Below the pieces are notes generated by a model, which saw only the letters and a program-made list of their open reading frames with translations, ran no database searches and was not told the DNA's origin. DNA of 64,000 nt from Afipia sp. GAS231 (GTDB lineage: Bacteria; Pseudomonadota; Alphaproteobacteria; Rhizobiales; Xanthobacteraceae), in NCBI RefSeq assembly GCF_900103365.1, contig NZ_LT629703.1, positions 6,186,501 through 6,250,500 on the forward strand, written 5' to 3'. This document shows, in pieces, positions 9,159-25,788 of this stretch. Numbering within the stretch: position 1 is the stretch's first letter; the number at the start of each line of letters is the position of its first letter. The position numbers and the translations under genes are program-made.

Positions 9159-9166
9159 CTCTACGA

Positions 9167-10272
9167 TTACGCCACAGCCGCCGGTGTTCCTGATTGATCA
9201 ACCCCGGCCGGGGCCAGGCCTTCCGCGCCGCCGCTGAAGGCGGCGACCAATTTTTCCAGTGTCGGGGAAAAGCCGCCGTCTGAAGGCACGATGTTGTCGG
9301 GCGGCGGCAGTTCCGCCGTGCGGTGACAGGCGGTGGCATGCCCGGTGGCGTCGGCCAGCAACTCAGGCACCTCGGTGCGGCAGCGCGCGATGGCGTAGGG
9401 GCAGCGGGTATGAAAGCGGCAGCCCGTGGGTGGATTGAGCGCGCTCGGCATCTCGCCCTCCAGCACGATGCGGCTGCGTTTGGCCTGCGGCCTCGGCACT
9501 GGAATGGCCGACAACAGCGCGCGGCTATAGGGATGCGTTGGCGCGGCGAACAGCGCCTGCGCATCCGCCGTCTCGACGATGGTTCCGAGATTCATCACCG
9601 CGACGCGGTCGGCGATGTGTTTCACCACGGCGAGATCGTGGCTGACGAAGATATAGGCAAGGCCAAGCCGGTCCTGCAAATCGCGCAGCAAATTGAGGAT
9701 TTGCGAGCGGATCGAGACGTCCAGCGCCGACACCGGCTCGTCGCAGATGATCAGTTTCGGTTCCACCGCCAGTGCCCGGGCGATGGCGATACGCTGGCGT
9801 TGGCCGCCGGAAAATTCATGCGGATAACGGCGCGCGAATCGTGGCTCCAGGCCGACCAGCCGCAACAGTTCCTCGACCCGTTCGCGCCGGCGCGAGGACG
9901 GCACCAGATCGTGCAGCGCCAGCGGCTCGGTCAGGATCTGGCTGACCGTCATGCGCGGGTTAAGCGAGGCATAGGGATCCTGAAAAATGATCTGCGCATC
10001 GCGCCGGAAGGCGCGCAGCGCGTTGGCGTCCAGCGCGCCGAGGTCGCGGCCCTCGAAGCGAACAGTTCCCGCGTCCGCCTCGATCAGCCGCAGCACCAGC
10101 CGGCTCACGGTAGACTTGCCGCAGCCGGATTCGCCAACCAGCGCCAGCGTCTTGCCGGCCTCGACGGTGAAGCTGACGCCGTCGACCGCCCTGACGTGAG
10201 CGGTGGGACGGCCGAACACTGAACGCGCGGCGACGAAATGCTTGACCAGGCCTTCGACTTCCAGAAGCGCGG

Positions 10273-10276
<4 letters not shown>
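9167..10276 (-). CDS. ABC peptide-type importer ATPase (DppF/OppF-like)
   Basis: Second cytoplasmic ATPase of the importer, 369 residues from the ATG at 10276. That start overlaps the stop of the preceding ATPase by 4 nt (ATGA); a much longer frame upstream is an artefact. The Walker A motif is GESGCGKS, the signature is SGGQRQR, and Walker B is [12 protein letters not shown]. The C-terminal oligopeptide/dipeptide domain has the cysteine-containing [10 protein letters not shown] motif, followed by an unusually long tail after about residue 320. Confidence 0.92.
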
Positions 10277-11258
<982 letters not shown>

Positions 11259-11262
<4 letters not shown>

Positions 11263-11969
11263 GCCTTGCCTGCCGTGGCCGCTTGAACGCCGGCATCAAT
11301 CGTTGCGCGGTCGGTGATCCCGGCCGGGTTCTTGCGCGTCGGCAGGAACGGGCGGAAATGCACCCAGCGTTCGCGGCTCACTTGTTCGAGCCGTTCGAGT
11401 TCGGCCAGCGGATCGGTGTGGTCGTCGACGCGCAAGTCGAGATCGGACCATTCCTCCTCGCCGTGGATCAACAGCGCCGCCGACTGCTTGCCGCGCTTGT
11501 CGCCGCCGGCGGCTTCGCCGGCCTTCAAAGCTGCTATCAGACGCTGCGCAAAGGGAAGGTGAGCATTGGCGACGAGCGCTTTCGCGGTGTCGTCGAGCAC
11601 CGCCGCGCCCGCCAGCATGTTGCCGGCGATGGAGAAGCCGTCGCCCTGAACATGGCCGCACCAGTCGACGCACTCATTGCCGGAGAAAGCCGCGATGCGT
11701 CCCTTGGCGTCCATGACATGCAGTTGCCGACTCTCGCGGCCGCTGTCGGCTGCGATCAGCGTATCGATCACCGCGCGCGGTTCGCGCCCCTCGCGCAACA
11801 GCGTGATGCCATCGATACCGTAATAGGGATTGACCAGCGCCTGCGTGGCGACGCCGCCGATGCCGGCCGCGATATGCGGGACGCGGGCGCCGACCGCGAA
11901 AAATTTCGTCGCAACCGCGATACCGAACTGGCCGGTTTGGGAATCGCGGGCGATGATCGACCAGGTCAT
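11259..11969 (-). CDS. DUF1028 protein, Ntn-hydrolase-like
   Basis: The protein is 236 residues from the ATG at 11969. It begins MTWSIIARD, and the DUF1028 family adopts an Ntn-hydrolase fold. Removal of Met would expose Thr2 as a possible N-terminal nucleophile, which supports this start over a longer frame. Conserved blocks are GIAVATKFFAVGARVPH, TQALVNPYYG, and GDGFSIAGNML. The gene sits between gamma-glutamyltransferase (upstream) and peptide-importer ATPases (downstream, 4-nt overlap). A peptide- or amide-hydrolysing role in the same pathway is therefore plausible. The family's reaction is not established. Confidence 0.8.
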
Positions 11970-12003
11970 GTTTGGCAAACCATCTTCAAGCCGCCTCTGC
12001 CCG

Positions 12004-13809
12004 TTATCGTCCCGCCGCGTAGCCTTGCATGCCCCTGGGATTGGCGGCGGCGCGGCGGCGGCGGCCAATCTTGGAGGCGGCGGTGAGGCGGCCTTCCGAC
12101 CAGTCGGGGCCGACCTCGACGACGTGGCCGCGGCCCTTCAGGGTATCGATGGTCGGCTTCGGTACGCGGTTCTCGACCACGAGCACACCGGGGCGCGAGG
12201 TGCGCGGCCAGAACGAGATCGGGAAATGTTCGGAGTGCCAGGCCGGTGCGTCGATCGCCTCCTGCAGGTTCAGCTTGGCATGGACGTGGCGCAGGAAGAA
12301 CTGCGTGGTCCATTGGTCCTGCTGATCGCCGCCGGGCGAGCCCCAGGCCATGTAGGGTTCGCCGTCGCGGGTGCACATCGTCGGCGAGAGCGTGGTGCGC
12401 GGACGCTTGCCGGGCGCCAGCGCCGCCGGGTGATCCTCCTCCAGCCAGAACATCTGGGCGCGGCTGCCAAGGCAGAAGCCGAGTTCCGGAATAACCGGCG
12501 AGGATTGCAGCCAGCCACCGGACGGCGTCGCCGAGATCATGTTGCCGGCCTGGTCGATGATGTCGAAATGCACGGTGTCGCCGCGCACTTCGCCGAAGCG
12601 GCCGACGGTCGGCTCGCCCGCGCCCATGGCGCCGACCGCCTCGCGGTGACCTTCGGCGCGGCGCATCTTGACGATCGAACCGAAGCCCTCGACCGAGCCG
12701 GGCACGAAGTCGAGCGAGGCTTTATCCCGCGAGATCAGCTTGCGGCGTTCGTCGTTATAGGCGTCCGACAGCAAGGTCGCGATCGGAATGTCGGTGAATT
12801 TTGGATCGCCGTAGAACTTCTCGCGATCGGCGAAAGCGAGTTTGGCGGCTTCGATCTGCAGATGGATAAACTCAGGTCCAGCGGGATCGAGCCCGTCGAG
12901 CTCAAATCCCTTCAACAGCGCGAGCTGCTGCAGCATCACCGGCCCCTGGCTCCAGACGCCGGGCTTGCAGACGGTATAGCGGCCATAGTCGTAGGTGAGG
13001 GGCGCTTCGACCGTCGGCTCCCAGCGGGCCATGTCGTCGGCCGAGAGCACGCCTTTGTGCGGCGAGCCGCTGACATCCATGACTTCTTGGGTGCGGCAGA
13101 ACTTGTCGATCGCTTCGGCGACGAAGCCGTGCGACCAGGATTTGCGCGCGCGCTCGATCTGCGCGACGCGGTCGGAGCCGGCGCTCTCGGCTTCCTTCAG
13201 GATCCGCGCGTAGGTTTCCGCAAGCTGCTTGTTCGTGAACAGCGTGCCGGGCTTCGGCACCTCGCCGTTCGGCAGATACACCGCGGCCGAGGTCGGCCAA
13301 TGCTTCTTGAATAGTTTCTCGACGATCTGGATCGTCGCCGCGGCGCGCTCGACCAGCGGGTAGCCGTTGGCGGCGTAGGCGATCGCGGGCTCCAGCACGT
13401 CACGCAAGCGCATGGTGCCGTAATCGCGCAGCAGCAGCATCCAGGATTCGAACGTGCCGGGGACGCAGGCGGCCAGCAGACCGGTGCCGGGCACCATCTC
13501 CAGCCCCTCGCTCTTGTAATGCGCGATGGTCGCCTTCGCCGGCGCCGGGCCCTGGCCGCAGATCACTTCGGTGCGGCCGCGTTTGGTATCATGCACAATG
13601 ATCGGAACGTCGCCGCCGGGGCCGTTGAGATGCGGCTCGACCACCTGCAGGGTAAAGGCGGTGGCGACACCGGCGTCGAAGGCGTTGCCGCCCTTTTCCA
13701 GGATACCCATGCCGACCGCGGTGGCGATCCAGTGGGTCGAGGTGACCACGCCGAACGTGCCTTCGATTTCCGGCCGGGTTGTGAACGGATCGGGATTGAT
13801 GTTGCCCAT
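12004..13809 (-). CDS. ggt: Gamma-glutamyltransferase family protein
   Basis: Gamma-glutamyltransferase/acylase family, 601 residues from the ATG at 13809. N-terminal block VVTSTHWIATAVGMGILEKG and the conserved GGNAFDAGVA lead to the autoprocessing site. The catalytic Thr is Thr412 in GDTVHFDIID, where the family usually has TTH; the second Thr is Val here. SATPSGGW follows, matching the region that binds the gamma-glutamyl group. No signal peptide is visible, so unlike Escherichia coli GGT this enzyme is probably cytosolic and would act on imported gamma-glutamyl compounds. It is first in the run that continues into DUF1028 and the importer genes. A cephalosporin-acylase-like activity is an alternative. 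Confidence 0.88.
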   Translation of the reverse strand: MGNINPDPFTTRPEIEGTFGVVTSTHWIATAVGMGILEKGGNAFDAGVATAFTLQVVEPHLNGPGGDVPIIVHDTKRGRTEVICGQGPAPAKATIAHYKSEGLEMVPGTGLLAACVPGTFESWMLLLRDYGTMRLRDVLEPAIAYAANGYPLVERAAATIQIVEKLFKKHWPTSAAVYLPNGEVPKPGTLFTNKQLAETYARILKEAESAGSDRVAQIERARKSWSHGFVAEAIDKFCRTQEVMDVSGSPHKGVLSADDMARWEPTVEAPLTYDYGRYTVCKPGVWSQGPVMLQQLALLKGFELDGLDPAGPEFIHLQIEAAKLAFADREKFYGDPKFTDIPIATLLSDAYNDERRKLISRDKASLDFVPGSVEGFGSIVKMRRAEGHREAVGAMGAGEPTVGRFGEVRGDTVHFDIIDQAGNMISATPSGGWLQSSPVIPELGFCLGSRAQMFWLEEDHPAALAPGKRPRTTLSPTMCTRDGEPYMAWGSPGGDQQDQWTTQFFLRHVHAKLNLQEAIDAPAWHSEHFPISFWPRTSRPGVLVVENRVPKPTIDTLKGRGHVVEVGPDWSEGRLTAASKIGRRRRAAANPRGMQGYAAGR

Positions 13810-13923
13810 GGGAGTCCAATTTTGCGCTGGTATTCGGTGCGGCCGCACTTGAACACAGCCGGCGCTGGATGCCAACCGGTGGTATGCCACGCATTGCTCC
13901 CATCCCCGTGATCATGCCAAGGA

Positions 13924-14946
13924 TCACGCTTGGACGGGTCGCGCGCGTTGGCGGCTGAAGCCTTCGCTGTAAATGTGCTCCGTTGAGGCGCGCCGGTCGA
14001 TGAAAGCCAGTTTGGCGTCGATGATCATCGCGGGCGACCCGCACAAATAGATAGCATGTTCCGAAAGGTCGTCAAAATCAGCGGTAACGGCGTGCTGCAC
14101 GTGACCCCTGCGCCCCTCCCAGGCTGCATCGGCGCGGGACAGCACCGGCACGAAATTGAACTCGAATAACCGGCTGCCCCACCTCCGGATATCGTCGAGC
14201 AGAAACAGGTCGGCGGCCGTGCGCCCGCCCCAGTACAGGCTGACCGGCGGACAATCCGGATGATCCATCAGCGATTCCAGGATAGCCTTGATCGGCGCGA
14301 TCCCCGTGCCGGTGGCAACCATCAACAGCGGCCGGTCGTCCTCGGCACGGAGGTGAAAAACGCCAAGCGGCAGGTCTACCTCCAGCCTGTCGCCGGGCTG
14401 CATGCGTTGCAGCATGCCTTGGGTGAAGGACCCACCCTCGATCTGCCGGATCTGAAAATCGACCCGATTGTCGCGCGGGATGGACGCCATCGAAAAGCTG
14501 CGCGTGGTCCCGTCAGGCAACACGACGTTCATGTATTGCCCCGGCCGGTAGTCCAGGAAAGCGGCTGCCGGGACTTCCAGCGCCAGATGCGTGACCAGGG
14601 CGCTGACGGGTCGAACGTCCCTGACCACGGCGTGGTGGCGCGCCGCCGGCGGCATCTCGGTCAGGCCGCGCGCCGGTTCGATGACCAGATCGCCGGCAGG
14701 CATCGCCTGACAGGCGAGGGCGTAGCCCCGGCTCTCCTCGTCCGGTGTCAGCGCCAGCGGGAACTCGGCATAGGTGACCGAACCTTCAACCAGCCTGATG
14801 CGGCAGGTGCCGCAGCCGCCTAGTTGGCAGTCGTGTGGCAGGTCGACGTTGGCACGAAGCGCCGCGGCGAGGATGGTTTCGTCCGGCGTCACCTCGAACG
14901 CCTGCTCTGTCTCCGCTACCTGCACCCGATAGACCATGCGGTCCAT
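13924..14946 (-). CDS. 2Fe-2S/FAD oxidoreductase, oxygenase reductase component
   Basis: Electron-transfer reductase of the BenC/phenol hydroxylase P5 type, 340 residues. The N-terminal plant-type ferredoxin domain has ligands Cys40, Cys45, Cys48 and Cys79 (C-x4-C-x2-C-x30-C). Next comes an FAD-binding barrel with RSFSMAS, then a nicotinamide-binding domain with GTGIAPIKAI and a terminal CGSPAM motif. It would pass electrons from NAD(P)H to an oxygenase or a ferredoxin. The ATG at 14946 overlaps the GlcG-like stop by 4 nt. The gene has no oxygenase partner on its own strand, but an HDO diiron protein and two ferredoxins are encoded divergently about 4 kb away. Confidence 0.88.
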   Translation of the reverse strand: MDRMVYRVQVAETEQAFEVTPDETILAAALRANVDLPHDCQLGGCGTCRIRLVEGSVTYAEFPLALTPDEESRGYALACQAMPAGDLVIEPARGLTEMPPAARHHAVVRDVRPVSALVTHLALEVPAAAFLDYRPGQYMNVVLPDGTTRSFSMASIPRDNRVDFQIRQIEGGSFTQGMLQRMQPGDRLEVDLPLGVFHLRAEDDRPLLMVATGTGIAPIKAILESLMDHPDCPPVSLYWGGRTAADLFLLDDIRRWGSRLFEFNFVPVLSRADAAWEGRRGHVQHAVTADFDDLSEHAIYLCGSPAMIIDAKLAFIDRRASTEHIYSEGFSRQRARPVQA

Positions 14947-15425
14947 CACATCTTGATGTCGGCCAGGACCAGCACCCGATGGTTCTTCGGTGCCAGCAAT
15001 TCCTGCAAGGCCTGAAGCGCTGCTAGGCCGCAGGCGGTATCCTGCTCGCCATTGCCGCCACTGAGGCCTATGCCGCCGACGACTTCGTCGTCCACCACGA
15101 TCGGAAAGCCGCCGACGAAAACGGCGAACCTGCCCTCGAAGCTCCACTGGATGCCGAACGCCTCGTTACCGGGAAGCGCGGGCCCGTTCGGCGGCTGATT
15201 GAACAGATGGGTCGAACGCTTGTGACCGGCCGCCGTGAAGGCCTTGTTCCAGGCGATCTGCGGACCCGTCACCCTGGCGCGATCCATCCGCTCCAACGCC
15301 AGCGGATAGCCGCCTTCATCGGCGACGCAGACCGTTTCCAGCACGCCGATCTCCCTGGATTTGCGGATCGCCGCGGCAACCATGTGGCGCGCCTCCTCGA
15401 GTTCCAGCTTGAATGAAGCTCTCAT
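14946..15425 (-). CDS. GlcG/HbpS-like heme-binding family protein
   Basis: A 159-residue protein of the GlcG/HbpS (PF03928) family. Family features are LEEARHMVAAAIRKSREIGV at the N-terminus, the central DRARVTGPQIAWNKAFTA region, and the glycine-rich GGFPIVVDDEVVGGIGLSGG. Members are small cytosolic or exported proteins commonly found in catabolic operons. Some bind heme or cobalamin, but their exact role is often unknown. It is translationally coupled (4-nt overlap) to the reductase. No signal peptide is seen. Confidence 0.82.
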   Translation of the reverse strand: MRASFKLELEEARHMVAAAIRKSREIGVLETVCVADEGGYPLALERMDRARVTGPQIAWNKAFTAAGHKRSTHLFNQPPNGPALPGNEAFGIQWSFEGRFAVFVGGFPIVVDDEVVGGIGLSGGNGEQDTACGLAALQALQELLAPKNHRVLVLADIKM

Positions 15426-15485
15426 GTGATTGTCCCAAGTGTACGAATTGCAGGAGTTGACGGATGATTCAGGACAGTCGTCGGA

Positions 15486-16988
15486 TCAGCATCCGCGATA
15501 GACCGTCTTGATCTGGGTGTAGAACTCCAGGCCGGCGCGACCCGACTCGCGAAATGTCGACGTGCTGGAGCGCTTGAGCCCGCCGAACGGCGCATTGATC
15601 AGATTGCCGGTCGTGGTGCGGTTGATCTTGACGGTTCCCGCTTCGATGTCGTTCGCGAAGTCGTGGATGTAACGCTGATTGCGCGTCGCGATCGCAGCCG
15701 ACAGGCCGTACTCGGTATCGTTGGCCTTTGCGATCGCATCCGCGTAGCTTGTCACCTCGATGAGGGCGATGACCGGCCCGAATATCTCCTCGCGCGCGAT
15801 CCGCATGTCCTGCGTGACATCGGTAAAGATCGCGGGCGACACGTAATAGCCGCGGTCGTAGGCCGGGCCGCTCAGGCGTTCGCCGCCGCACAGCAACGTT
15901 GCCTCACGCTTGCCGATTTCGACGTAACGCAGCACGGTCTCCAGTTGCCGCGCCGTAGCCAGCGGTCCGATATCGTTTCCGGCAACGAGGCCGCTCCCGA
16001 CCTTTAGCGCTTTCACTTTGGTCACGAGTTTTTCGGTGAACGCCGCCTTGACCTGTTGCATGACAAGCACGCGGCTGGTCCCGGTGCAGGCCTGTCCGCT
16101 CAGCGACAGGCCGCCCTTGATGGTCAGGTCCACGGCCTTGTCGAGATCCGCATCCTCCATCACGATCAGCGGGTTCTTGCCGCCGAGCTCCATCTGGGTT
16201 CGTGTGGTGAAGCCGACCGAGCGATGAATCTGTTCTCCGGCCAAGGTAGATCCCGTGAAGGAAATAGCGCGCACCACCGCCGGCACGCAGATCGCCGGAC
16301 CGACATCGGCGGCGCTCCCGGTGACGAAATTGAGCACGCCCTTGGGAATTCCCGCGGCGACGAAGGCTTCCGTGAGGCGGTAGCCGCTCAGCGGCGCGTC
16401 GGACGACGGCTTGAATACCACGGTGTTGCCGGCGATCAGCGCCGGCCCAATTTTTCGCGCCGGTATCGATACCGGAAAGTTCCACGGCGTGATGACCGAC
16501 ACCACACCCAGCGGCTCGCGCTGCGTATAGACGATCATGTCGGCATCGTCGTTGGGAAAGGTCTCGCCTGCGAACGACTGGCCTTCTACGGCATAGAAAC
16601 GCAGCGTTTGCGCCGAGCGCAGGATCTCGTCCTTGCTCAGGTTGAGCGCCTTGCCTTGCTCCCGCGTCAACTCCTCTGCGAATCGATCAACATGCGTCTC
16701 CAGATAGCTGGCGGCACCATTAAGAATCTTCGCTCGCGCGGTGATCGGGGTCTTTTTCCAGCTCGCGCAGGCAGCGGCCGCTGCGTGCACGGCCATTTCG
16801 GCATCTGCCGCCGAAGAAGCGGGAAATTGGCCGACGATGTCGGACGTATCGGCGGGATTGACGTCGTCGAAATACTCGCCTGTCCGGCCCGCCACCCATT
16901 GGCCATCGATATAGTTTTTGAATTTTTCGATTCCGTCGCGCGCCGGTGCGTCGCGCGTCACCGATACTGCAGCGTCATTCATGATCAT
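15486..16988 (-). CDS. NAD(P)-dependent aldehyde dehydrogenase
   Basis: Aldehyde dehydrogenase superfamily, 500 residues, normal length. The cofactor site ITPWNFPV (Asn170), the catalytic Glu267 in MELGGKNP and the nucleophile Cys301 in SGQACTGTSR are all present, so the enzyme should be active. The fold contains the usual FTGSTLAGEQI nucleotide-binding segment. It begins 9 nt after the transporter stop and precedes the GlcG-like gene by 60 nt, so it belongs to the leftward unit of the HDO cluster. It would oxidise an aldehyde formed in that pathway; the substrate is unknown. Two ATGs (16988 and 16982) are possible starts. Confidence 0.92.
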   Translation of the reverse strand: MIMNDAAVSVTRDAPARDGIEKFKNYIDGQWVAGRTGEYFDDVNPADTSDIVGQFPASSAADAEMAVHAAAAACASWKKTPITARAKILNGAASYLETHVDRFAEELTREQGKALNLSKDEILRSAQTLRFYAVEGQSFAGETFPNDDADMIVYTQREPLGVVSVITPWNFPVSIPARKIGPALIAGNTVVFKPSSDAPLSGYRLTEAFVAAGIPKGVLNFVTGSAADVGPAICVPAVVRAISFTGSTLAGEQIHRSVGFTTRTQMELGGKNPLIVMEDADLDKAVDLTIKGGLSLSGQACTGTSRVLVMQQVKAAFTEKLVTKVKALKVGSGLVAGNDIGPLATARQLETVLRYVEIGKREATLLCGGERLSGPAYDRGYYVSPAIFTDVTQDMRIAREEIFGPVIALIEVTSYADAIAKANDTEYGLSAAIATRNQRYIHDFANDIEAGTVKINRTTTGNLINAPFGGLKRSSTSTFRESGRAGLEFYTQIKTVYRGC

Positions 16989-16997
16989 TGCCTTTCG

Positions 16998-18536
16998 CTA
17001 GCTCCACAACATCACGGCGCACAACGTCGATACGCCAAGTCCGACCAACACCGGCACCAGCACCGCATTCACGATCTGGAACACCGGCACGCGCGCGAAC
17101 CCGGCGACCGCAATCAGTGACGACCACGCGATCAGCGTGCCGCCGCCGGTCCACACCGCTCCCATTTGGCCCACCGCGGCCAGCGTCGCCGGGTCCAGCC
17201 CGGCGCCCGGCGCCAGCGCACCGGACAGCGAGCCGGTCAGCGGCAGGCCGGCAAAGCCGGAGCCGTCGATCCCCGTGATCATTCCAACCACCAGGACGCC
17301 GAAAGCCACCAGGAAGTGGTTGTTGGGAATCCAGCCCTGCGCGCTCTGAATCAGCTCGAACAGAAGACTCGGGGCCTGCGCGGACGGCACGTTGAGAATC
17401 GAAGCCGCAAGATCGCCGCCGGCGCCGAGGAAGAAGAAGCCCGCTATCGGCAGCACCGACCCCATGGCGCGAAAAGCAAAAACGAAACCCTCGGTGACAT
17501 GGTCGGCGCTGGTGTCCATCGCCTTGCGCAGCCCGTCGGTGGCGAACGCCGCGCACACCATCAGCAAGGCTGCGACGCCGCCAACCAGCGCGGCGGCTTC
17601 GCCACCTTTCAGGTCGTGACCGTAGCCCAGCTTGGACATCATCATCAGCACGATGACACAAAGGAAGGCCAGCGGCGTCGCGATGGCAAAGAACTTCGAC
17701 CATCCGATCCGCTTTCGGCCGATCATCGACAGCTCCTTGGAAACCTGCGCATCGCTGACCAGCGGCTCCTGGCTGGTGCCGCGCGCGATCTCGGCCTTGT
17801 CGAAGGTTCCCTCGGCCTCGATCCGGGCCAGGTCGCCGTTGCTCGATTGCGCCTGCCATCGATCGAGCAGGGAATTGCTGGGCGGCACGATTGACTTGCG
17901 GATCGAGATATAGGCCAGCAACAGGGCGATGGAACCGGTGATCAGCGACAGCACCAGAGCCCGATCGGCCACCATTGCCACATTCACCGCTGCGCCCGCA
18001 GCCTTCGCACTGATGCCGGGTGCCACGCCGATCACGTAATCGGACGACAGCGCCATGCCCTGACCGGCAATGGCGATCGCCATCGCGCCGGCAAGCGGCG
18101 GCAGGCCGGCGGCGATCGCGGCCGGCAGCAGCACCGCCGACACCAGCGGCACCGCGGGTGTCGGCCAGAAGAACAGGGAAATCACATAGGTGATCGCAGC
18201 GAGAACAAAATAGGCAGCATGACCGTTTTTCATGACCGCGCGAAATGGTTCGACCATCCGGATGTCCGAACGCAGCACCTTCAGGGCATTCAACAGCGCC
18301 GTCATCAGCGCGATCACGAGGAAGATATTGAAGAGCTCCTTTGCTGCCGTGAAGCTCGCATTGAAGACGCTGCCGACAGCGGTCACCGGGCTGTGCGACC
18401 AGGCCAGCGTCACGAGAAGGGTCGCGACAATGGACGGCACGACGACATTGGCGCGCAAAATCATGGTCACGACGATGATGGCGACCCCGGCGAGATAGAC
18501 CCAGTGCGCCGCGCCGATGGTTATGTGACTTGTCAT
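16998..18536 (-). CDS. Multi-pass membrane transporter, likely organic-acid uptake
   Basis: A 512-residue integral membrane protein with about 11-13 hydrophobic segments, beginning HWVYLAGVAIIVVTMIL. It resembles the ion-transporter superfamily (GntP/CitMHS/short-chain fatty acid type) in length and spacing, but I do not recognise a specific subfamily. A large hydrophilic loop around residues 240-310 (RIEAEGTFDKAEIARGTSQE) divides two membrane halves. The ATG at 18536 is preceded by a GGGGGAG that lies very close (2 nt). It is first in the leftward operon, followed by aldehyde dehydrogenase, which fits import of the pathway's substrate. Function is inferred from context. Confidence 0.7.
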   Translation of the reverse strand: MTSHITIGAAHWVYLAGVAIIVVTMILRANVVVPSIVATLLVTLAWSHSPVTAVGSVFNASFTAAKELFNIFLVIALMTALLNALKVLRSDIRMVEPFRAVMKNGHAAYFVLAAITYVISLFFWPTPAVPLVSAVLLPAAIAAGLPPLAGAMAIAIAGQGMALSSDYVIGVAPGISAKAAGAAVNVAMVADRALVLSLITGSIALLLAYISIRKSIVPPSNSLLDRWQAQSSNGDLARIEAEGTFDKAEIARGTSQEPLVSDAQVSKELSMIGRKRIGWSKFFAIATPLAFLCVIVLMMMSKLGYGHDLKGGEAAALVGGVAALLMVCAAFATDGLRKAMDTSADHVTEGFVFAFRAMGSVLPIAGFFFLGAGGDLAASILNVPSAQAPSLLFELIQSAQGWIPNNHFLVAFGVLVVGMITGIDGSGFAGLPLTGSLSGALAPGAGLDPATLAAVGQMGAVWTGGGTLIAWSSLIAVAGFARVPVFQIVNAVLVPVLVGLGVSTLCAVMLWS

Positions 18537-18594
18537 GGCTCCCCCAGTGACCGGCAAAAAGCGGATTACCGCGATATCGCTTCAGTGGTGCGCA

Positions 18595-18612
18595 GAATTG
18601 TATACTGTATTC
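18595..18612 (-). promoter_or_regulatory. Probable operator and -10 region of the leftward transporter operon
   Basis: The segment GAATTGTATACTGTATTC has matching ends (GAAT...ATTC) and a GTATAC core. Read on the minus strand it contains CAGTATACAATTC, including a good -10 hexamer TACAAT at 18602-18597, about 60 nt before the transporter start. No convincing -35 is visible, which would suit an activated or tightly repressed promoter. The same GTATACAAT occurs in the divergent promoter at 18807-18818. Confidence 0.55.
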
Positions 18613-18790
18613 CAAAATGCAATAGAAAATTCCAATCTGACGTCCGGACGGCGTGGCCAAGCTCTCGGCCCATGACACTCGCGCGGTTATCCACAGTGTG
18701 AACAATAGCGGCATTTACTGGGAATTTCAGCCAGATTTTCCGTGCCGGGGCGTTACTGCACAGGGAAAGGGGCAGACGGCGTCCGCTGCC

Positions 18791-18818
18791 TTGACTTGCA
18801 TTCTTAATTGTATACAAT
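18791..18818 (+). promoter_or_regulatory. Promoter of the HDO operon with overlapping GntR-type operator
   Basis: A sigma-70-like promoter is visible: TTGACT at 18791-18796, a 16-nt spacer, and TACAAT at 18813-18818. The -10 is embedded in a perfect 12-bp palindrome, ATTGTATACAAT (18807-18818). GntR/FCD-family operators often have this form. A regulator bound here would block RNA polymerase. The nearest candidate is the FCD regulator encoded at 20901. The rest of the 356-bp divergent gap (18537-18892) shows no further gene. Confidence 0.7.
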
Positions 18819-18892
18819 ATCCAACAATGGACCTTGCAACTGAACGTGGCGCAGCAGCCAATTCGCCATAAAGGCACAAAGGGAGAGCGAAG

Positions 18893-19663
18893 ATGCCCGA
18901 ATTGATGAACCATGTGGAATTCCGCACCGCCCTCGAGAATGCGATCAAGGGCAAAAGCGCCAACAAGGCGCCCTTCAGCATCGCCTGGGCCAGCGGAAAA
19001 CTCAGCCGCGCCCATCTCGCGCGGTGGGCCGAGAACCACTTCCACTACGTCGGACCGTTCGCGGACTACCTTGCCTATATCTACGCGCGGATGCCGGACC
19101 GTTACACGGAAGCAAAGGATTTTCTGCTCGCCAATATGTACGAGGAGGAGATCGGCGGCGACCGCCATACCGACCTGCTGATTCGCTTTGCCGAAGCCTG
19201 CGGCACCACACGCGAGCGGGTGACCGATCCCGACAACATGACCGCCACGACGCGCGGTCTGCAGAGCTGGTGCTATTCCGTTGCCATGCGTGAGGATCCG
19301 ATCGTCGCGGTCGCCGGCCTGGTCGTCGGGCTGGAGTCGCAGGTGCCGTCGATCTATCGCAAGCAAACCCCGACGCTGCGCGAAAAGTACAAGTTCAGCG
19401 ACGAGGAGGTCGAGTTCTTCGATCTCCACATCGTGTCCGACGAAATTCATGGCGAGCGCGGCTACCAGATCGTTCTCGAACATGCCAACACCGTCGAGCT
19501 GCAGCAGAGATGCCTGAAGATCTGCGAAGTCGGCGCGCAGATGCGGTTGCTCTACACCACGGCGCTGTATTGGGACTATGTCGCGCAGGAGGTGCCGATG
19601 AGCGAACTCGAGTCCGTCGAACCCAAGGTTCCGCAGGACGAGCGCCGATTGCTGCAGGCGTAA
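18893..19663 (+). CDS. Heme-oxygenase-like diiron (HDO) oxygenase candidate
   Basis: A 256-residue all-helical protein of the TenA/PqqC/heme-oxygenase-like fold. It carries the six-ligand pattern of HDO diiron enzymes such as CADD and UndA: Glu85-x6-His92, Glu148, and His179-x3-Asp183-x2-His186. The spacing nearly equals CADD (Glu81, His88, Glu142, His174, Asp178, His181, as recalled). Such enzymes activate O2 at a diiron or related centre for N-oxygenation, oxidative cleavage or decarboxylation. Automated naming as TenA or a regulator would be misleading. The ATG at 18893 has a GGGAGAG ribosome site. It leads an operon with two ferredoxins and a small unknown protein, and a reductase is encoded divergently, so it probably turns over repeatedly with supplied electrons. 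Substrate unknown. Confidence 0.8.
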   Translation: MPELMNHVEFRTALENAIKGKSANKAPFSIAWASGKLSRAHLARWAENHFHYVGPFADYLAYIYARMPDRYTEAKDFLLANMYEEEIGGDRHTDLLIRFAEACGTTRERVTDPDNMTATTRGLQSWCYSVAMREDPIVAVAGLVVGLESQVPSIYRKQTPTLREKYKFSDEEVEFFDLHIVSDEIHGERGYQIVLEHANTVELQQRCLKICEVGAQMRLLYTTALYWDYVAQEVPMSELESVEPKVPQDERRLLQA

Positions 19664-19667
19664 CCAG

Positions 19668-20042
19668 GTGCCAACCGTCATTCTTCATCGCGACGGCCAA
19701 GCCCACCAGGGCGAGATCGCCGAGAACACCAATCTGGTGGTCCGTGCCGGCATCAAGCAGTTTCCCTTCCCGCATCTGCGCTACGGATGCGGGATGGGGA
19801 AATGCGCGAAATGCGCCTGCCGCGTTCTCAAGGGGGCAGAGCAACTGCCGGAGCCGAACTGGAAGGAACGGAAGCAACTCGGCCCCCGGCTGGACGATGG
19901 CTACCGCCTGATTTGCCAGCTGTGGCTCAACCACGATGTCGAATTGGCGCAGGACAAGAACCCGATCGAGCCCTGGTCTGCAGTGTCGGCGGCGGCTGTG
20001 TCGGCCGTCGTTCCGCAAGGCGCCGGCAGCAAGGAGGAATGA
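19668..20042 (+). CDS. 2Fe-2S ferredoxin, first of two in the HDO operon
   Basis: A 124-residue plant-type ferredoxin. Cluster ligands are Cys41, Cys46, Cys49 and Cys83 (C-x4-C-x2-C...C), with an additional Cys51. The start is a GTG at 19668, only 4 nt after the HDO stop, so translation is coupled. The segment after the third cysteine (KERKQLGPRLDDGYRLICQ) closely resembles that of the second ferredoxin at 20379. It should carry electrons from the reductase to the HDO protein. The last 25 residues are an Ala/Ser/Val-rich tail of no recognised function. Confidence 0.87.
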   Translation: MPTVILHRDGQAHQGEIAENTNLVVRAGIKQFPFPHLRYGCGMGKCAKCACRVLKGAEQLPEPNWKERKQLGPRLDDGYRLICQLWLNHDVELAQDKNPIEPWSAVSAAAVSAVVPQGAGSKEE

Positions 20043-20044
20043 GC

Positions 20045-20353
20045 ATGTATGTCATCCTGACGAGCAAGCCTGGACAGTTCAGAACCGAAGCCGTCGACGG
20101 GCTGCGGCCTCTGGAGGCTTACGACTACAGGTTCTACGGGCAGATCAAGGCGCATTTTGTAATCGCGGAACTGGTTGAAGAGAGCACCAAAATCCGCGTG
20201 GTCGAGGATGACTCCGCGATCGTCAACGACGTGCCTTCAAAGTTCCTTGAAAAGTTCGAGACCACGGCGCTGGCGCTCAAGGAGCTCGAGCACCTGACGA
20301 CGTTCGGTCACATGGAAACCGAGCTGCGCAAGACGCCGCTGTCCGCAAGCTGA
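20045..20353 (+). CDS. Small protein of unknown function between two ferredoxins
   Basis: A 102-residue protein. AAGGAGG at 20031-20037 is 7 nt upstream of ATG 20045, so that start is preferred over the ATG at 20039 that overlaps the ferredoxin stop. No family is recognised. It begins YVILTSKPGQFRTE and has a central beta-rich part (HFVIAELVEESTKIRVVED), then a helical C-terminus (VPSKFLEKFETTALALKELE). There are no cysteines, no membrane segment and no signal peptide, so it is a soluble, cofactor-free partner. By position it could be a coupling or effector subunit of the oxygenase, as MmoB-type proteins are for diiron monooxygenases. That is an inference. Confidence 0.75.
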   Translation: MYVILTSKPGQFRTEAVDGLRPLEAYDYRFYGQIKAHFVIAELVEESTKIRVVEDDSAIVNDVPSKFLEKFETTALALKELEHLTTFGHMETELRKTPLSAS

Positions 20354-20378
20354 ACTGCTCCTTCCAGCCGGTCGCCAC

Positions 20379-20744
20379 ATGATTCAAGTCACATTCCTGA
20401 CCAACAGCGGCAAGGTGGCCAGCGCTCCGGCCAACAGCAACCTGCTGCGGGTTTCGCTGCGCGAGCAAGGCGGCATTCCCTTCAAGTGCGGCGGCGGGCT
20501 ATGCGGCACGTGCAAATGCAGGATCGAGGCCGGGCTTGAGCACACCGATGCGGTCAAGCCGAAGGAACGCAAGCATCTGACCGAAGACCAGCTGAAGGCG
20601 GGATACCGAATGGCGTGCCAGACATTCCTGAACGGCGACGTCAGCGTATCCTGGGTGCCATTGGCCGAACGTCGCGCGCCTGTCCCACGTACCGAGCCGG
20701 TGGCGGCGATGGCGATGCCGCCGCAGGACAAGCCGGAGCCGTAG
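20379..20744 (+). CDS. 2Fe-2S ferredoxin, second of two in the HDO operon
   Basis: A 121-residue plant-type ferredoxin with cluster ligands Cys37, Cys42, Cys45 and Cys80 and an extra Cys47, the same pattern as the first ferredoxin. Residues around KERKHLTEDQLKAGYRMACQ match the first paralogue, so the two probably arose by duplication and diverged. A proline/alanine-rich tail follows residue 100. The gene starts 25 nt after the small unknown protein and ends the visible operon before the regulator. Confidence 0.87.
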   Translation: MIQVTFLTNSGKVASAPANSNLLRVSLREQGGIPFKCGGGLCGTCKCRIEAGLEHTDAVKPKERKHLTEDQLKAGYRMACQTFLNGDVSVSWVPLAERRAPVPRTEPVAAMAMPPQDKPEP

Positions 20745-20900
20745 GGCTGGGCCGCAACGGGATGGCAAATCAACGCGACTCCGGTAGACTGGCCGCAGGC
20801 AGCCTGCCTTGGTGCAAGCACCGGGGCGATCGACATTTCAGCGCGTTGATCATCATGTTCCAGCAGGCTTGCCGTTCGGTTCTTGAGATAGGTTTACGAT

Positions 20901-21773
20901 ATGGTGCTTACCACCGGGGTCCCGAAGCGTCGGCTTGGCGAGGATCATTCCTCGCTGCATGACCGCGTCGTTACCGAGCTTCGTCAGGCGATTCTGTCCG
21001 GACGATTGAAGCCTGGCGAACGGCTGGTCGAGGGCCGGCTGGCCGACGAGCTCGGCGTATCCCGCAACCCGGTGCGCGAGGCGATTCGCGCGTTGGCGTC
21101 CGAGGGCCTGATCGAAGTCACCGCGCGACGCGGGGCGGCGGTTGCGACGATGACGGAGCACGAGGCACGCGAGACCATCGAAGTACGCGCGCTGCTGGAG
21201 GGGCACAACGCCAGACTGGCGGCACGCCGCCAAGACAAGCAGATCATCAAGCGTATTGAGGCCGTCTTGAACAAGGGCACGGCGGCCGTCACGGCCAGGC
21301 GGTTTGAGCAACTGTTCGATCTAAACCTGCAGTTTCACCGCGAACTCGCCGCGGCGGGACAGAACACGGTGCTTGGGGACATCATGCAGAAACTGCGGGA
21401 AAGAACCGCGATGCTGTTCTCGCCGATGAATCCGGCCCGGCAGGCGCGCAACTGGGACGAACACGCGGCGATATTGCGTGCCATCATCGAGGGCGACGAG
21501 CGTGCGGCCGCGACGCTGGCTTCCGAACACGTGATGCGTGCCGGCATGGACTTTCTGGTCGGGCTCCATTCGGATGGAGAGTTTCCGCTGTTCCCGTTGG
21601 CCGAAGCAGGAGGCAGCAGCCGCGAAGTGTCGCGAGCGCCTTCGCTCGCGATCGGCGCGTCGCGGCAAGAGCTGTCCGGTGGCCAGAAGCGCACCGCTGG
21701 CAGGGGGCGTCCAGCGAGCCGCAAGCCGAACTCTGCCGACAAGGCAAAGCCCGGAATACGAGGGGCATCGTGA
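20901..21773 (+). CDS. GntR-family regulator with FCD domain and AT-hook-like tail
   Basis: A 290-residue transcription factor. The N-terminal winged-helix domain (about 15-85) has VEGRLADELGVSRNPVREAI, a typical GntR recognition region. The FCD effector domain (about 90-225) has likely metal ligands Asn142, His146, His188 and His210. The C-terminal 55 residues are low-complexity and basic and contain AGRGRPASRKP, which resembles an AT-hook (core RGRP at 268-271). This is unusual for the family. It lies 156 bp after the HDO operon and probably controls it and the divergent unit through the GTATAC operators. FCD regulators often respond to organic acids. It could be autoregulated, but no matching site was seen directly upstream. 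Confidence 0.86.
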   Translation: MVLTTGVPKRRLGEDHSSLHDRVVTELRQAILSGRLKPGERLVEGRLADELGVSRNPVREAIRALASEGLIEVTARRGAAVATMTEHEARETIEVRALLEGHNARLAARRQDKQIIKRIEAVLNKGTAAVTARRFEQLFDLNLQFHRELAAAGQNTVLGDIMQKLRERTAMLFSPMNPARQARNWDEHAAILRAIIEGDERAAATLASEHVMRAGMDFLVGLHSDGEFPLFPLAEAGGSSREVSRAPSLAIGASRQELSGGQKRTAGRGRPASRKPNSADKAKPGIRGAS

Positions 21774-21832: not shown

Positions 21833-22834
21833 TCACACCGGAACGGCGGCCGCGGCCGGGTTGTTGACGGCGTGGCAGGCGACGCCGTCGATCAGCGCGG
21901 GCGCCTGCCGGCGGCAGAGCTCGAACGCCAGCGGGCAGCGCGGGTTGAAGGCACATCCGGGCGGCGGATCGATCGGGTTGGGGATCTCGCCCTGGACCGG
22001 AATCCGCTGCCGGCCGGACATTGCGAGATCCGGAACCGCGCCCAGCAGCATCTTGGTGTAAGGCATCCGCGGATTGGCGAACAGTTCGCGCCCCTCCGCG
22101 ATTTCGACGATGCGGCCGAGATACATCACGCCGATCCGGGTCGCCATGTGGCGGACCACCGCGAGATTATGGCTGATGAAGAGATAGGTCAGGCCGAACT
22201 TGTCCTGCAGGTCGCGCATCAGATTGAGGATCTGGGCCTGCACCGAAACATCCAGCGCCGAGGTCGGCTCGTCGCAGACAATGAATTCGGCCTCGGATGC
22301 CAATGCCCGCGCAATCGCGATGCGCTGGCGCTGGCCGCCGGAAAATTCATGTGGAAATTTCAGGCCGTCGTCTGGATGCAGGCCGACGAGGCCCAGCAAT
22401 TCACCGACGCGGGCGGCGATGTCGCGCTCGCCCTGGATCAGGTCGAAGGCGCGGATCGGCTCGGAGACGATGGCGTCGACCCGAAAACGCGGATTGAGGC
22501 TGGCATAGGGATCCTGAAAGATCATCTGGATGCGGCGGCGCAGCCGCTGCCGCAGCTGCGCCTGCCTCGTATTGGTCATCGAGACGCCGTCGATGACGAC
22601 TTCGCCGGAACTCGGCGGCAGCAGGCCCACGACCATCCGCGCCACCGTGGTCTTGCCGGAGCCGGATTCGCCGACGAGGGCAAAGGTTTCGCCCTTCTTG
22701 ATGTCGAAGGTGACGCCGTCGACGGCTTTGAGGAATTCGAGATGGCCGCCTTCCAGCACCCGGTTGAGCCACGGTTTCGAGACGTCGAACACGCGGCGCA
22801 GGTTCTTCACGTCGACAAAGGGCGCTGCACTCAT
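21833..22834 (-). CDS. Second peptide-type ABC importer ATPase (DppF-like)
   Basis: ATPase of a second importer of the dipeptide family, 333 residues. Walker A GESGSGKT, signature SGGQRQR and Walker B FIVCDEPTSALD are intact. The C-terminal oligopeptide domain contains CAFNPRCPLAF. The start codon overlaps the stop of the partner ATPase by 4 nt (ATGA). Confidence 0.92.
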   Translation of the reverse strand: MSAAPFVDVKNLRRVFDVSKPWLNRVLEGGHLEFLKAVDGVTFDIKKGETFALVGESGSGKTTVARMVVGLLPPSSGEVVIDGVSMTNTRQAQLRQRLRRRIQMIFQDPYASLNPRFRVDAIVSEPIRAFDLIQGERDIAARVGELLGLVGLHPDDGLKFPHEFSGGQRQRIAIARALASEAEFIVCDEPTSALDVSVQAQILNLMRDLQDKFGLTYLFISHNLAVVRHMATRIGVMYLGRIVEIAEGRELFANPRMPYTKMLLGAVPDLAMSGRQRIPVQGEIPNPIDPPPGCAFNPRCPLAFELCRRQAPALIDGVACHAVNNPAAAAVPV

Positions 22835-23829
22835 GCCGCGGTCTCCTTCGCGGTCGCATGGGGCGCGGTATCGTAGAGATGGCAGGCGACCGACTGGGTG
22901 CCGTGCAGGAGCGGTTCCGGCCGATCGACGCGGCAGCGGTCGAAGGCGAACGCACAGCGCGGATTGAACGAGCAGCCGGGTGGGATTGCCGACAGCCGCG
23001 GCATCGAGCCTGGGATCTGCACCAACCGCTTGTCTTCGCCCGCGAGCGTCGGGATCGCGCCCATCAAGCCTTTGGCGTAGGGGTGCAACGGGTTCTGCAC
23101 GACATCGAGCACCGGGCCGATCTCCGCGATCCGGCCCGAATACATCACGGCGACTCGATCCGAAGTCTCGGCGATCACGCCCATGTCGTGGGTGACCAGC
23201 ATCACGGCGGTGCCGTGATCGCGGCCGAGGCGCTTGATCAGCGAAATGATCTGCGCCTGGACCGACACATCAAGCGCGGTGGTCGGCTCGTCGGCGATGA
23301 TCAGTTCCGGTTCGGCGCAGATCGCCAGCGCAATGACGACGCGCTGGCGCATGCCGCCGGAAAATTCGTGCGGGTAGGCGTCGATGCGCTTCTCCGGGGC
23401 GGGGATTCCGACCTCGGCCAACAGGTCGATGGCGCGCTTGCGCGCGGCGCTTTCCGAAAGGTTGGTGTGGGTGCGGATCGTCTCGACGATCTGGTCGCCG
23501 ATTCGGTAAAGCGGATTGAGGCTGGTCAGCGGATCCTGAAAGATCATGCCGATCCGTTTTCCGCGGATGCGGCGGATTTCTTCCGGGGGCAGATGATCGA
23601 TCCGCATGCCCGACAGATAGATCTCGCCGCCGCTGATCCGGCCCGGCGGATCGATCAGCCCGATAACGGCGAGGCCCGTGACCGATTTGCCCGCACCGGA
23701 TTCGCCGACCACGCCGAGTACTTCGCCCTTGGCGATGTCGAAGGAAACGCCATCGATCGCGCGCAAGGTCGCGCGGCGGGTGAGGAATTCCACCTGGAGA
23801 TTGCGCACGGAAAGAACAGGAGTTGTCAT
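22831..23829 (-). CDS. Second peptide-type ABC importer ATPase (DppD-like)
   Basis: ATPase with 332 residues from the ATG at 23829, which overlaps the permease stop by 4 nt. A longer frame running on upstream is a shadow of the permease. Walker A GESGAGKS, signature SGGMRQR and Walker [13 protein letters not shown] are present. The C-terminal domain has [11 protein letters not shown]. It is part of an operon reading binding protein, DppB, DppC, DppD, DppF, all on the minus strand. Confidence 0.92.
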
Positions 23830-24797
23830 CGGAGCTTTGGATTGAGCGCGTCGCGCAGCCAGTCGCCCAGCAGGTTGATGGAAAGGATCAGTCCCGCCAG
23901 CGCCACGCCGGGAAAGGCAACGATCCACCATTCGCCGGCGAACAGATAGTTGTTGCCGATCCGGATCAGGGTGCCGAGCGAGGGCATGGTGTCGGGCATC
24001 CCGGCGCCGAGGAACGACAGCGTCGCTTCGGTGATGATCGCGAGCCCGAGGTTGATGGTGGCGATCACGAGTATAGGCCCCATTGTGTTCGGCAGCACGT
24101 GCCGCAGCATGATCTTCGCCGCCGGAAGCCCGATCAATTGCGCGGCCGCGACATAGTCCTTGCTCTTCTCGACCATGACCGAGCCGCGGACCGTGCGGGC
24201 ATATTGCACCCAAAAACTCAGGCCGATCGCGAACACCAGCACCGCCAGCGTGCTCATGGCGTCGAGCCGGTTGCCGAACACGGATTTGGCGACGCCGTTG
24301 ACGAGCAGCGCGATCAGGATTGCCGGAAAAGTAAGCTGCACGTCGGCGATGCGCATGATCAGTCCGTCGACCGCGCCGCCGACATAGCCCGCGACCAACC
24401 CGAGCGTGACGCCGAGCACGCCTGCGAACAGCATGCCGAGCACGCCGACCACCAGCGAGACCCGCAAGCCGTAGAGAATGGCGGAATACACGTCGCGGCC
24501 CTGTTCGTCGGTGCCGAGCAGGAACGGCGACTGGCCGTCCGCGGTCCACAGCGGCGAGATCCGCGAATTCATCAGTTGCAACTGCGCGGGATCGAACGGG
24601 TTCTGCACCGAAAGCTGCGATGCGAACAGCGCCAGCAGGAAAAACAGGACGGTTACCGCCGCCGCCACCATCGTCATCTTGGAGCGGCGGAACGAATAGA
24701 ACATGTCGCTGTCGAGGGTGCGCTTCAGCCAGCCGGCACTGAGCCGTGCGGCTTGCGCGTTCGGCTCGGCGGGATGGGGAACTACGGCGTCGGACAT
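23826..24797 (-). CDS. Second peptide-type ABC importer permease (DppC-like)
   Basis: A 323-residue OppC/DppC-type permease. A cytoplasmic N-terminus and first helix (MVAAAVTVLFFLLALFASQL) lead into a periplasmic loop with FLLGTDEQGRDVYSAILYG, a family marker. The ATPase-contact loop is DYVAAAQLIGLPAAKIMLRH. It overlaps the DppD-like gene by 4 nt and starts 10 nt after the DppB-like stop. Confidence 0.91.
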   Translation of the reverse strand: MSDAVVPHPAEPNAQAARLSAGWLKRTLDSDMFYSFRRSKMTMVAAAVTVLFFLLALFASQLSVQNPFDPAQLQLMNSRISPLWTADGQSPFLLGTDEQGRDVYSAILYGLRVSLVVGVLGMLFAGVLGVTLGLVAGYVGGAVDGLIMRIADVQLTFPAILIALLVNGVAKSVFGNRLDAMSTLAVLVFAIGLSFWVQYARTVRGSVMVEKSKDYVAAAQLIGLPAAKIMLRHVLPNTMGPILVIATINLGLAIITEATLSFLGAGMPDTMPSLGTLIRIGNNYLFAGEWWIVAFPGVALAGLILSINLLGDWLRDALNPKLR

Positions 24798-24807
24798 GGT
24801 GATCTCG

Positions 24808-25788
24808 CTATGCCGGACGGCTGATGGTCGAGCGCAGGCGCGGATCGACGACGGTGTAGAGGATATCGACCACCAGATTGATGGTGACGTAGATCAGCGA
24901 GACCATCAGCAGGTAGGCCGCCATGATCGGAATGTCGACGTTTTGCACGGCCTGCACGAACAACAACCCCATACCGGGCCACTGGAACACGGTTTCGGTG
25001 ATAATCGCAAAAGCAATAACCGAGCCAAACTGCAGCCCGGCGACCGTGATAACGGGAACCAGCGTGTTCTTGAGCGCGTGGCCGAAATGGATGGCGCGCG
25101 TGGTCAGGCCGCGGGCGCGGGCGAAGCGGATATAGTCGGTACGAAGCACTTCGAGCATTTCCGCGCGCACCAGACGCATGATCAGGGTCATCTGGAACAG
25201 GCCGAGCGTGATCGACGGCAGGATCAGTGCCTTCAGACCGGACAGCGTGAGCAGGCCGGTACTCCACCAGCCGATCTTCACGACGTCGCCGCGGCCGAAC
25301 GAGGGCAGCCAGCCCAGCGTCACCGAGAACAGGTAGATCAGCAGGATACCGATCAGGAATGTCGGCAGCGATATTCCAATCAGCGAAACCGCCTGGAATA
25401 TTCTGGTCAGCACGGTGTCGCGCCGCAGCGCCGAGTAGACCCCCATCAGGATGCCGAACAGCATCGCGAGAAACGTGGCGCAGACCGCGAGTTCCAGCGT
25501 CGCCGGCATCCGTTCCATCAACAGGTTCGCGACCGGCTGGCGGAATTGATAGGACACCCCGAACTTGAATTGCGCGGCATTGACAACATAGCGGACGAAT
25601 TGCACGGGGACGGGATCGTCGAGGCCAAGCGACTGGCGCACCGCCGCGCGTTCCGCCGCCGAGGTGTCGATCGAGACGATCTGGCTGACCGGATCGCCGG
25701 CGAAACGGAACATCGAGAACGCGATAATTCCGACCGCAATCATGACGCCGATGGCCTGTACGGCGCGGCGAAGAGTGAAAGCGAGCAT
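24808..25788 (-). CDS. Second peptide-type ABC importer permease (DppB-like)
   Basis: A 326-residue OppB/DppB-type permease. The start MLAFTLRRAVQAIGVMIAVG and the cytoplasmic loop YIRFARARGLTTRAIHFGHA are characteristic. It follows the binding-protein gene by 101 nt. Confidence 0.91.
   Translation of the reverse strand: MLAFTLRRAVQAIGVMIAVGIIAFSMFRFAGDPVSQIVSIDTSAAERAAVRQSLGLDDPVPVQFVRYVVNAAQFKFGVSYQFRQPVANLLMERMPATLELAVCATFLAMLFGILMGVYSALRRDTVLTRIFQAVSLIGISLPTFLIGILLIYLFSVTLGWLPSFGRGDVVKIGWWSTGLLTLSGLKALILPSITLGLFQMTLIMRLVRAEMLEVLRTDYIRFARARGLTTRAIHFGHALKNTLVPVITVAGLQFGSVIAFAIITETVFQWPGMGLLFVQAVQNVDIPIMAAYLLMVSLIYVTINLVVDILYTVVDPRLRSTISRPA

Follow-up and report, generated by a model that had tools for sequence, protein, structure and literature searches.

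A conserved proteobacterial gene module joins a heme-oxygenase-like dimetal protein to two ferredoxins and a small orphan protein

Layout of the locus in Afipia sp. GAS231

We analysed a 64,000-nucleotide stretch of DNA from Afipia sp. GAS231 (contig NZ_LT629703.1, positions 6,186,501 to 6,250,500), referred to here as the window, in which the genes at 13924..21773 form a module that includes a heme-oxygenase-like dimetal protein (HDO). The module is composed of two divergent units. A transporter, an aldehyde dehydrogenase (ALDH), a GlcG-like protein and a reductase are encoded on the minus strand, and the HDO, a ferredoxin (Fd1), a small protein, a second ferredoxin (Fd2) and a GntR/FCD regulator are encoded on the plus strand. 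An earlier, sequence-only reading of this DNA had proposed that these genes constitute an undescribed oxygenase system. All of the genes it named are present at the coordinates it gave, and its observation is confirmed overall, with its interpretation supported in part only. The start of the reductase gene is near 14946, and the 407-residue open reading frame that begins at 15147 is a mechanical extension overlapping glcG. The features of the module are as follows:

13924..14946, minus strand: BenC-type reductase with three Pfam domains ([2Fe-2S], FAD and NAD); BenC model 206 of 430 bits
14946..15425, minus strand: GlcG/HbpS-like (DUF336) protein; PF03928, 112 bits
15486..16988, minus strand: ALDH; nearest model alpha-ketoglutaric semialdehyde dehydrogenase, 557 of the 770 bits needed
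16998..18557, minus strand: transporter, 519 residues; TTG start at 18557, ATG at 18530; family unassigned; sub-threshold DUF969 match
18597..18608: further operator-like site, ATTGTATACTGT, ahead of the transporter gene; two mismatches relative to ATTGTATACAAT
18807..18818: operator-like palindrome, ATTGTATACAAT, about 75 bases 5′ of the HDO start
18893..19663, plus strand: HDO, 256 residues; Pfam Haem_oxygenas_2 (PF14518), 125 bits; proposed terminal diiron oxygenase
19668..20042, plus strand: Fd1, plant-type [2Fe-2S]; Fer2, 32 bits; GTG start 4 bases past the HDO stop
20039 (or 20045)..20353, plus strand: small protein, 104 residues from 20039; orphan family; window copy cysteine-free
20379..20744, plus strand: Fd2, plant-type [2Fe-2S]; Fer2, 49 bits
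20901..21773, plus strand: GntR/FCD regulator; FCD 86 bits, GntR 72 bits

The HDO retains six metal ligands and forms its own clade

Sequence profiles place the protein encoded at 18893 in the HDO superfamily (3His/3carboxylate) and back a predicted seven-helix fold, as evident by a Haem_oxygenas_2 score that compares with a cut-off of 28.9 bits. Across the 29 rows of an alignment in which a sister family at 43-48 % identity is also represented, residues Glu85, His92, Glu148, His179, Asp183 and His186 do not vary, and the six-ligand motif is present in all 81 HDO copies recovered from 80 loci. This agrees with the complete ligand set recognized in the sequence-only reading. The ligands also occupy the same alignment columns as those of four CADD-type proteins. 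The further statement that their spacing matches that of CADD holds for the within-helix intervals (7, 4 and 3 residues), whereas the inter-helix loops differ by at least one residue. Position R218, which is invariant in both the HDO family and the sister family, might bind the carboxylate of a substrate. Residue C127 is likewise invariant in the 29-row alignment, which has no TenA reference among its rows. A grouping with TenA-type enzymes was checked indirectly: Pfam TENA_THI-4 scores the HDO at 41 bits versus 125 bits for Haem_oxygenas_2, and none of the six metal ligands is lost; the tree described below also had no TenA reference.

Among solved sequences, two 4-aminobenzoate synthases (CADD being one of them) lie closest, and PqqC comes next. 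CADD and NePabS have the same six metal ligands as the window HDO, and CADD/PabS enzymes are described as consuming their own Tyr and Lys residues, with Tyr41 of NePabS essential as well (PMC11965152). Among the HDO copies from the 80 loci, the position of the sacrificial Tyr is occupied by Ser29 in 80 of 81 and that of the Lys by Gln158 in 81 of 81, as judged by motif. Trp45 and His49 of the window HDO lie at places that match, by offset, Tyr41 and Tyr45 of NePabS. By comparison, all four of the proteins that pass the CADD model carry Tyr, Lys, Tyr and Tyr at these four places. Enzymes of the CADD/NePabS type are self-sacrificing, and therefore electron-transfer partners would not be expected for them, whereas the window HDO lacks the sacrificial Tyr and Lys.

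The window HDO yields 95 bits with the CADD model TIGR04305, for which 200 are needed, and 51 bits with the PqqC model TIGR02111, for which 240 are needed. In a 31-row tree, the HDO family forms one clade with support of 100/99, apart from the CADD-type, PqqC-side and sister-family rows; the tree carries a long-branch warning between groups, and support for the sister family is only 76/74. Two of the nine PqqC-side rows were scanned with the PqqC model, and both pass. The second HDO-like gene in the genome is its own PqqC (362 bits with TIGR02111). Two candidate identities were rejected on these data: a CADD/PabS p-aminobenzoate synthase, given the replaced Tyr and Lys, the model score below cut-off and the separate clade, and PqqC, given the low score and the separate PqqC gene. 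The distinctness of the HDO from both CADD and PqqC is therefore borne out.

A conserved core in a reshuffled neighbourhood

To describe the neighbourhood, the best 80 of 298 related stretches in a genome collection were examined, 63 of which extend for 8 kb or more in both directions (‘full-flank’ loci). The 80 loci include representatives from Bradyrhizobium, Cupriavidus, Achromobacter, Variovorax, Paraburkholderia, Devosia, Dankookia and Paracraurococcus. Fd1, the small protein and Fd2 are all found beside the HDO in 63/63 full-flank loci. The GlcG-like gene is present in 62, a match to GntR in 61 (which upholds the earlier assignment of a GntR/FCD regulator to the locus), ALDH in 58 and the transporter in 56. 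The reductase, present in 41/63, is the least conserved of the genes named in the sequence-only reading. Other recurrent neighbours are TauE/SafE (37/63), ornithine-cyclodeaminase-like (28/63) and amidase (20/63) genes, and a gamma-glutamyltransferase-like gene different from that of the window occurs in 6/80 loci.

The order of these genes is variable. We counted 17 gene-order strings, a figure that falls to 14 when three strings distinguished solely by an additional GntR match are merged with the others; in some cases a missing gene is the sole difference, and close relatives share strings. Retention of the genes despite this reshuffling speaks for a shared function. In contrast to the variable order overall, Fd1, the small protein and Fd2 are contiguous on the same strand, with the small protein in the middle, in all 78 loci that hold all three. 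Mean pairwise identity is 0.89 for the HDO, the most conserved member, 0.56 for the small protein and 0.54 for GntR.

Four loci (L016, L017, L019 and L022) carry an ALDH of ~42-44 % identity in place of the usual one, together with a TauE/SafE-like gene, and no transporter match was seen. In these loci, it looks as if peripheral genes have been exchanged around a fixed core.

The HDO and the small protein occur in the same genomes

A genome survey that scored only the best first-look candidates per genome located the HDO in 14 of the 146 genomes of the window's genus and the small protein in those same 14, a patchy presence as expected of an accessory pathway. Both are likewise found in the same 61 of 299 genomes of a second family, which we infer to hold Caballeronia and Cupriavidus, where they are spread over five of 25 genera. 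Neither protein was detected at E 1e-40 and 1e-4 in the remaining 132 and 238 genomes, with the proviso that the small-protein profile was built from HDO-linked copies, such that distant unlinked relatives could be missed.

The smallest set of retained genes is seen in genome G756, whose HDO is 73 % identical to that of the window. Of the core, 19.9 kb of this genome yielded only the HDO, Fd1, the small protein and Fd2, and the neighbours are an enol-lactonase-like hydrolase, a different ALDH and a GMC dehydrogenase. We take these four core genes to be the putative functional unit.

Some genomes have two or three nearby HDO copies, as in L025 (at 5912 and 10001), L158 (genome G813) and genome G792 (three copies, two of them in L159). 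A search of G813 and G792, the two multi-HDO genomes searched, gave one small-protein match despite the extra HDO copies.

The small protein belongs to an orphan family

The cluster motif CX4CX2CXnC is present in 79/79 copies of Fd1 and 78/78 copies of Fd2. The small protein encoded between them has no cysteine at all in 62/78 copies, and is labelled ‘ferredoxin’ in several NCBI records and ‘hypothetical protein’ in others. Profile comparison indicates that it is unlike Fd1, Fd2 or GlcG, with a positive control (Fd1 versus Fd2) of 99.2 %. A search of Pfam with 26 members produced matches at chance level only (best E 0.052), and comparison with solved chains in the PDB gave no convincing match (E 0.28 and 0.56). 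Homology to MmoB/DmpM was considered and rejected, as hhalign assigns a probability of 0.1 % against 18 MmoB/DmpM sequences. Judging from our analysis, the small protein would most likely be a dedicated component, either an effector or a docking protein that couples ferredoxin to the HDO.

An operator-like site precedes the HDO gene

FCD regulators favour palindromes of the kind found upstream of the HDO gene. Within 300 bases upstream of the HDO, a site resembling ATTGTATACAAT occurs with two or fewer mismatches in 55/80 loci and with three or fewer in 72/80, compared to 0.9 % and 3.7 %, respectively, of control windows (n=1503). These figures are based on a motif taken from the window itself and on related loci that are not independent. 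A single copy of the pattern TTGTATACAA is present in the 7.58 Mb genome, as is one of a reversed control pattern, and about one copy is expected from an estimate using base composition. Since the genomic count is about as expected, only the conservation across loci is informative.

Accessory genes hint at the product and substrate

The presence of ALDH and the GlcG-like protein in the module points to a reactive aldehyde, and an aldehyde is probably the product of the HDO reaction. The nearest model for the ALDH, although below its cut-off, provides a hint that this aldehyde might be carboxylated. EfgA, a DUF336 protein, senses formaldehyde, and its description implicates K57, S114 and D121 in binding and reports pocket residues that are largely conserved across DUF336 homologues (PMC8153426). 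Residues K61, S122 and D129 of the GlcG-like protein align with these three, with an overall similarity to EfgA that is low (56 bits).

Other genes offer hints regarding the substrate. Imine-reductase-like genes and an aspartate dehydrogenase in L012 hint at amino-acid nitrogen, and an amide or ester might be indicated by the amidase, gamma-glutamyltransferase-like and alpha/beta-hydrolase genes. From such extra genes, a sulfonate, a gamma-glutamyl compound, a cyclic amino acid or an N-heterocycle could be guessed. The transporter family exhibits a weak DUF969 match in 2/13 members, and its relative in L003 has 11 hydrophobic segments. Our assumption that this might be a 5-oxoproline-type transporter gained no further support.

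In the window, apparent components of a peptide ABC transporter, read by eye at 10273-13890 and 21833-25788, flank the module, as do gamma-glutamyltransferase-like and DUF1028-like genes, which elsewhere lie beside the module in just one of the 80 loci, L003. These flanking genes may represent a separate peptide-use locus.

A proposed multicomponent catabolic oxygenase

The module is real and strongly conserved, with a well-supported architecture, and we infer its mechanism, substrate class and catabolic role. We favour, with a probability of roughly 0.6, the interpretation that it encodes a multicomponent, NADH-driven, substrate-induced catabolic oxygenase in which the HDO is the terminal enzyme. 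This proposal is supported by the gene content, the retained ligands, the conserved but shuffled cluster, the joint presence of the HDO and the small protein and the conserved operator-like site.

According to this proposal, a small anion, perhaps a carboxylic or amino acid, would enter via the transporter, and the substrate or an intermediate would release the GntR/FCD protein from sites resembling ATTGTATACAAT. NADH would reduce the reductase, which is local in the window and would be supplied from elsewhere in other hosts. Electrons would then pass through Fd1, Fd2 or both to the diiron HDO, which, as judged from the protein families involved, would activate O2 and oxidize the substrate. 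The small cysteine-free protein might couple ferredoxin to the HDO, in the manner of MmoB-type proteins in ferritin-fold monooxygenases. The aldehyde or semialdehyde released by this reaction would be oxidized by the ALDH, and the GlcG-like protein may bind or sense it. Host-variable amidases, gamma-glutamyltransferase-like enzymes, hydrolases and imine-reductase-like enzymes could prepare the substrate or finish the remaining skeleton.

Several observations weigh against this interpretation. One of these is the distribution of the reductase. The sequence-only reading had named a lack of conserved ferredoxin and reductase genes beside the HDO gene as evidence that would contradict it; the ferredoxins are present in every full-flank locus, but the reductase is lacking in 22 of the 63. 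Two reductase queries run against the 31 reductase-less loci yielded nothing that could substitute for it in 24 of them and, in the other seven, a phthalate-dioxygenase-reductase-like gene kilobases away that was judged to be unrelated. ALDH is absent from 5/63 full-flank loci, and 4/80 loci have no operator-like site (six mismatches). Calling the small protein an ‘effector’ relies on its position and co-occurrence, given that it does not resemble MmoB/DmpM. Furthermore, the related genomes and loci that were counted are not independent samples.

A sister family bears on the same issue. In L114 (genome G139), at 7919-11650, a sister HDO with ~44-46 % identity to the window HDO is found with GlcG- and GntR-like genes, and no match to the ferredoxins or the small protein was obtained there, which likewise counts against the proposal. 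In this sister HDO, seven residues are inserted between ligands E85 and H92. Also encoded at the locus are a CmcJ/NvfI-family oxidoreductase (342 bits, with 80 needed) and a protein that partly resembles Rieske alpha subunits but scores beneath every cut-off. The association of HDO, GlcG and GntR may be older, with the ferredoxin block specific to the family of the window, as suggested by this one genome.

Alternative explanations

The strongest alternative, which we nevertheless consider unlikely, is that the module is biosynthetic. The HDO would then be an N-oxygenase, desaturase or C-C lyase in a pathway to a small metabolite or signal, whose export would fall to the transporter. Precedent favours such a role, as the validated HDOs, about a dozen, are described as making natural products and as acting for the most part on fatty or amino acids (PMC13108848), and the HDO MboA has its dedicated reductase in a biosynthetic cluster. 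However, we noticed neither an ATP-grasp ligase nor an NRPS among those neighbours, not all of them annotated, that recur in at least four loci, and it is ALDH, GlcG, hydrolases and the GntR/FCD regulator that recur instead.

A special catabolic case, which appears distinctly improbable, would be an HDO that cleaves C-S bonds. For example, a desulfonating enzyme could hydroxylate the carbon beside a sulfonate to generate an aldehyde and sulfite, and TauE/SafE could export the sulfite. The frequent TauE/SafE genes noted above (Pfam TauE, 74 bits) and the prevalence of ALDH fit this scheme, but TauE/SafE is absent from 26/63 loci and from the module of the window, and the family name does not fix the substrate.

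Somewhat less probable again is the notion that a different oxygenase is the one served by the ferredoxins, small protein and reductase, with the HDO acting alone as a mere neighbour. Other HDOs can run on chemical reductants or mediators, according to one report (PMC13185094). However, the HDO and the small protein occur in the same genomes in both survey sets, despite varying order and distance (up to ~8 kb, in G582), and no other recurring oxygenase was recognized beside the module. Finally, despite the nearest solved sequences, a self-sacrificing p-aminobenzoate synthase like CADD/PabS or a metal-free enzyme like PqqC can be dismissed as highly improbable on the basis of the model scores, the replaced Tyr and Lys, the separate clade and the additional PqqC in the genome.

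Relationship to known systems and implications

Bacterial multicomponent monooxygenases acting on methane or toluene comprise a reductase, a ferredoxin, a small redox-free protein and a diiron oxygenase. The component plan of the proposed HDO oxygenase is similar, whereas the ferritin fold of these enzymes is unlike that predicted for the HDO, and MmoB/DmpM is unlike the small protein. The HDO review states that multicomponent monooxygenases require an effector and that HDOs do not need one, and the term ‘ferredoxin’ was not found in its text (PMC13108848). The module reductase resembles the BenC/AntC reductases of Rieske dioxygenases in its domain set and its best NCBIfam model, but the window reductase falls below the BenC cut-off and the module in the window contains no Rieske oxygenase.

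The nearest precedent is MboA/MboB (mangotoxin acetylenase and reductase), an HDO with one reductase. As in the module, an HDO and a dedicated NAD(P)H, flavin and Fe2S2 reductase are encoded in one cluster, and the authors describe this as possibly the first characterized dedicated HDO-redox partner pair. Unlike the module, this system is biosynthetic and acts on a peptide, and the part of the report available mentions no separate ferredoxins or small protein (PMC13185094). The sequence-only reading had regarded the combination of an HDO with a reductase and two ferredoxins as unusual. A dedicated reductase was already known, but no account of this cluster was found in the literature searched, with subscription papers largely outside its scope, and the description of the system as undescribed stands to that extent. 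What seems to be new is the putative catabolic setting, the two separate ferredoxins and the small partner protein, rather than the existence of a reductase. The most distinctive HDO partner is the small orphan protein, not the reductase. A bolder view, to which we would assign slightly less than even odds, is that this is the first multicomponent HDO in primary catabolism, with a reductase, two ferredoxins and an obligate cysteine-free effector, and that it represents an independent invention of the methane/toluene monooxygenase design.

Related stretches are present in many soil proteobacteria and share an unchanging core made up of the HDO and, after it in the list, the two ferredoxins with the small protein between them. 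The joint presence or absence of the HDO and small protein across genomes makes gene deletion a clean test. If the proposal is true, the module would provide natural partners for studying electron delivery to HDOs and their gating, and would offer a first functional frame for a protein family labelled ‘ferredoxin’ or ‘hypothetical protein’ in databases. It would also extend the HDO family from biosynthesis to nutrient use.

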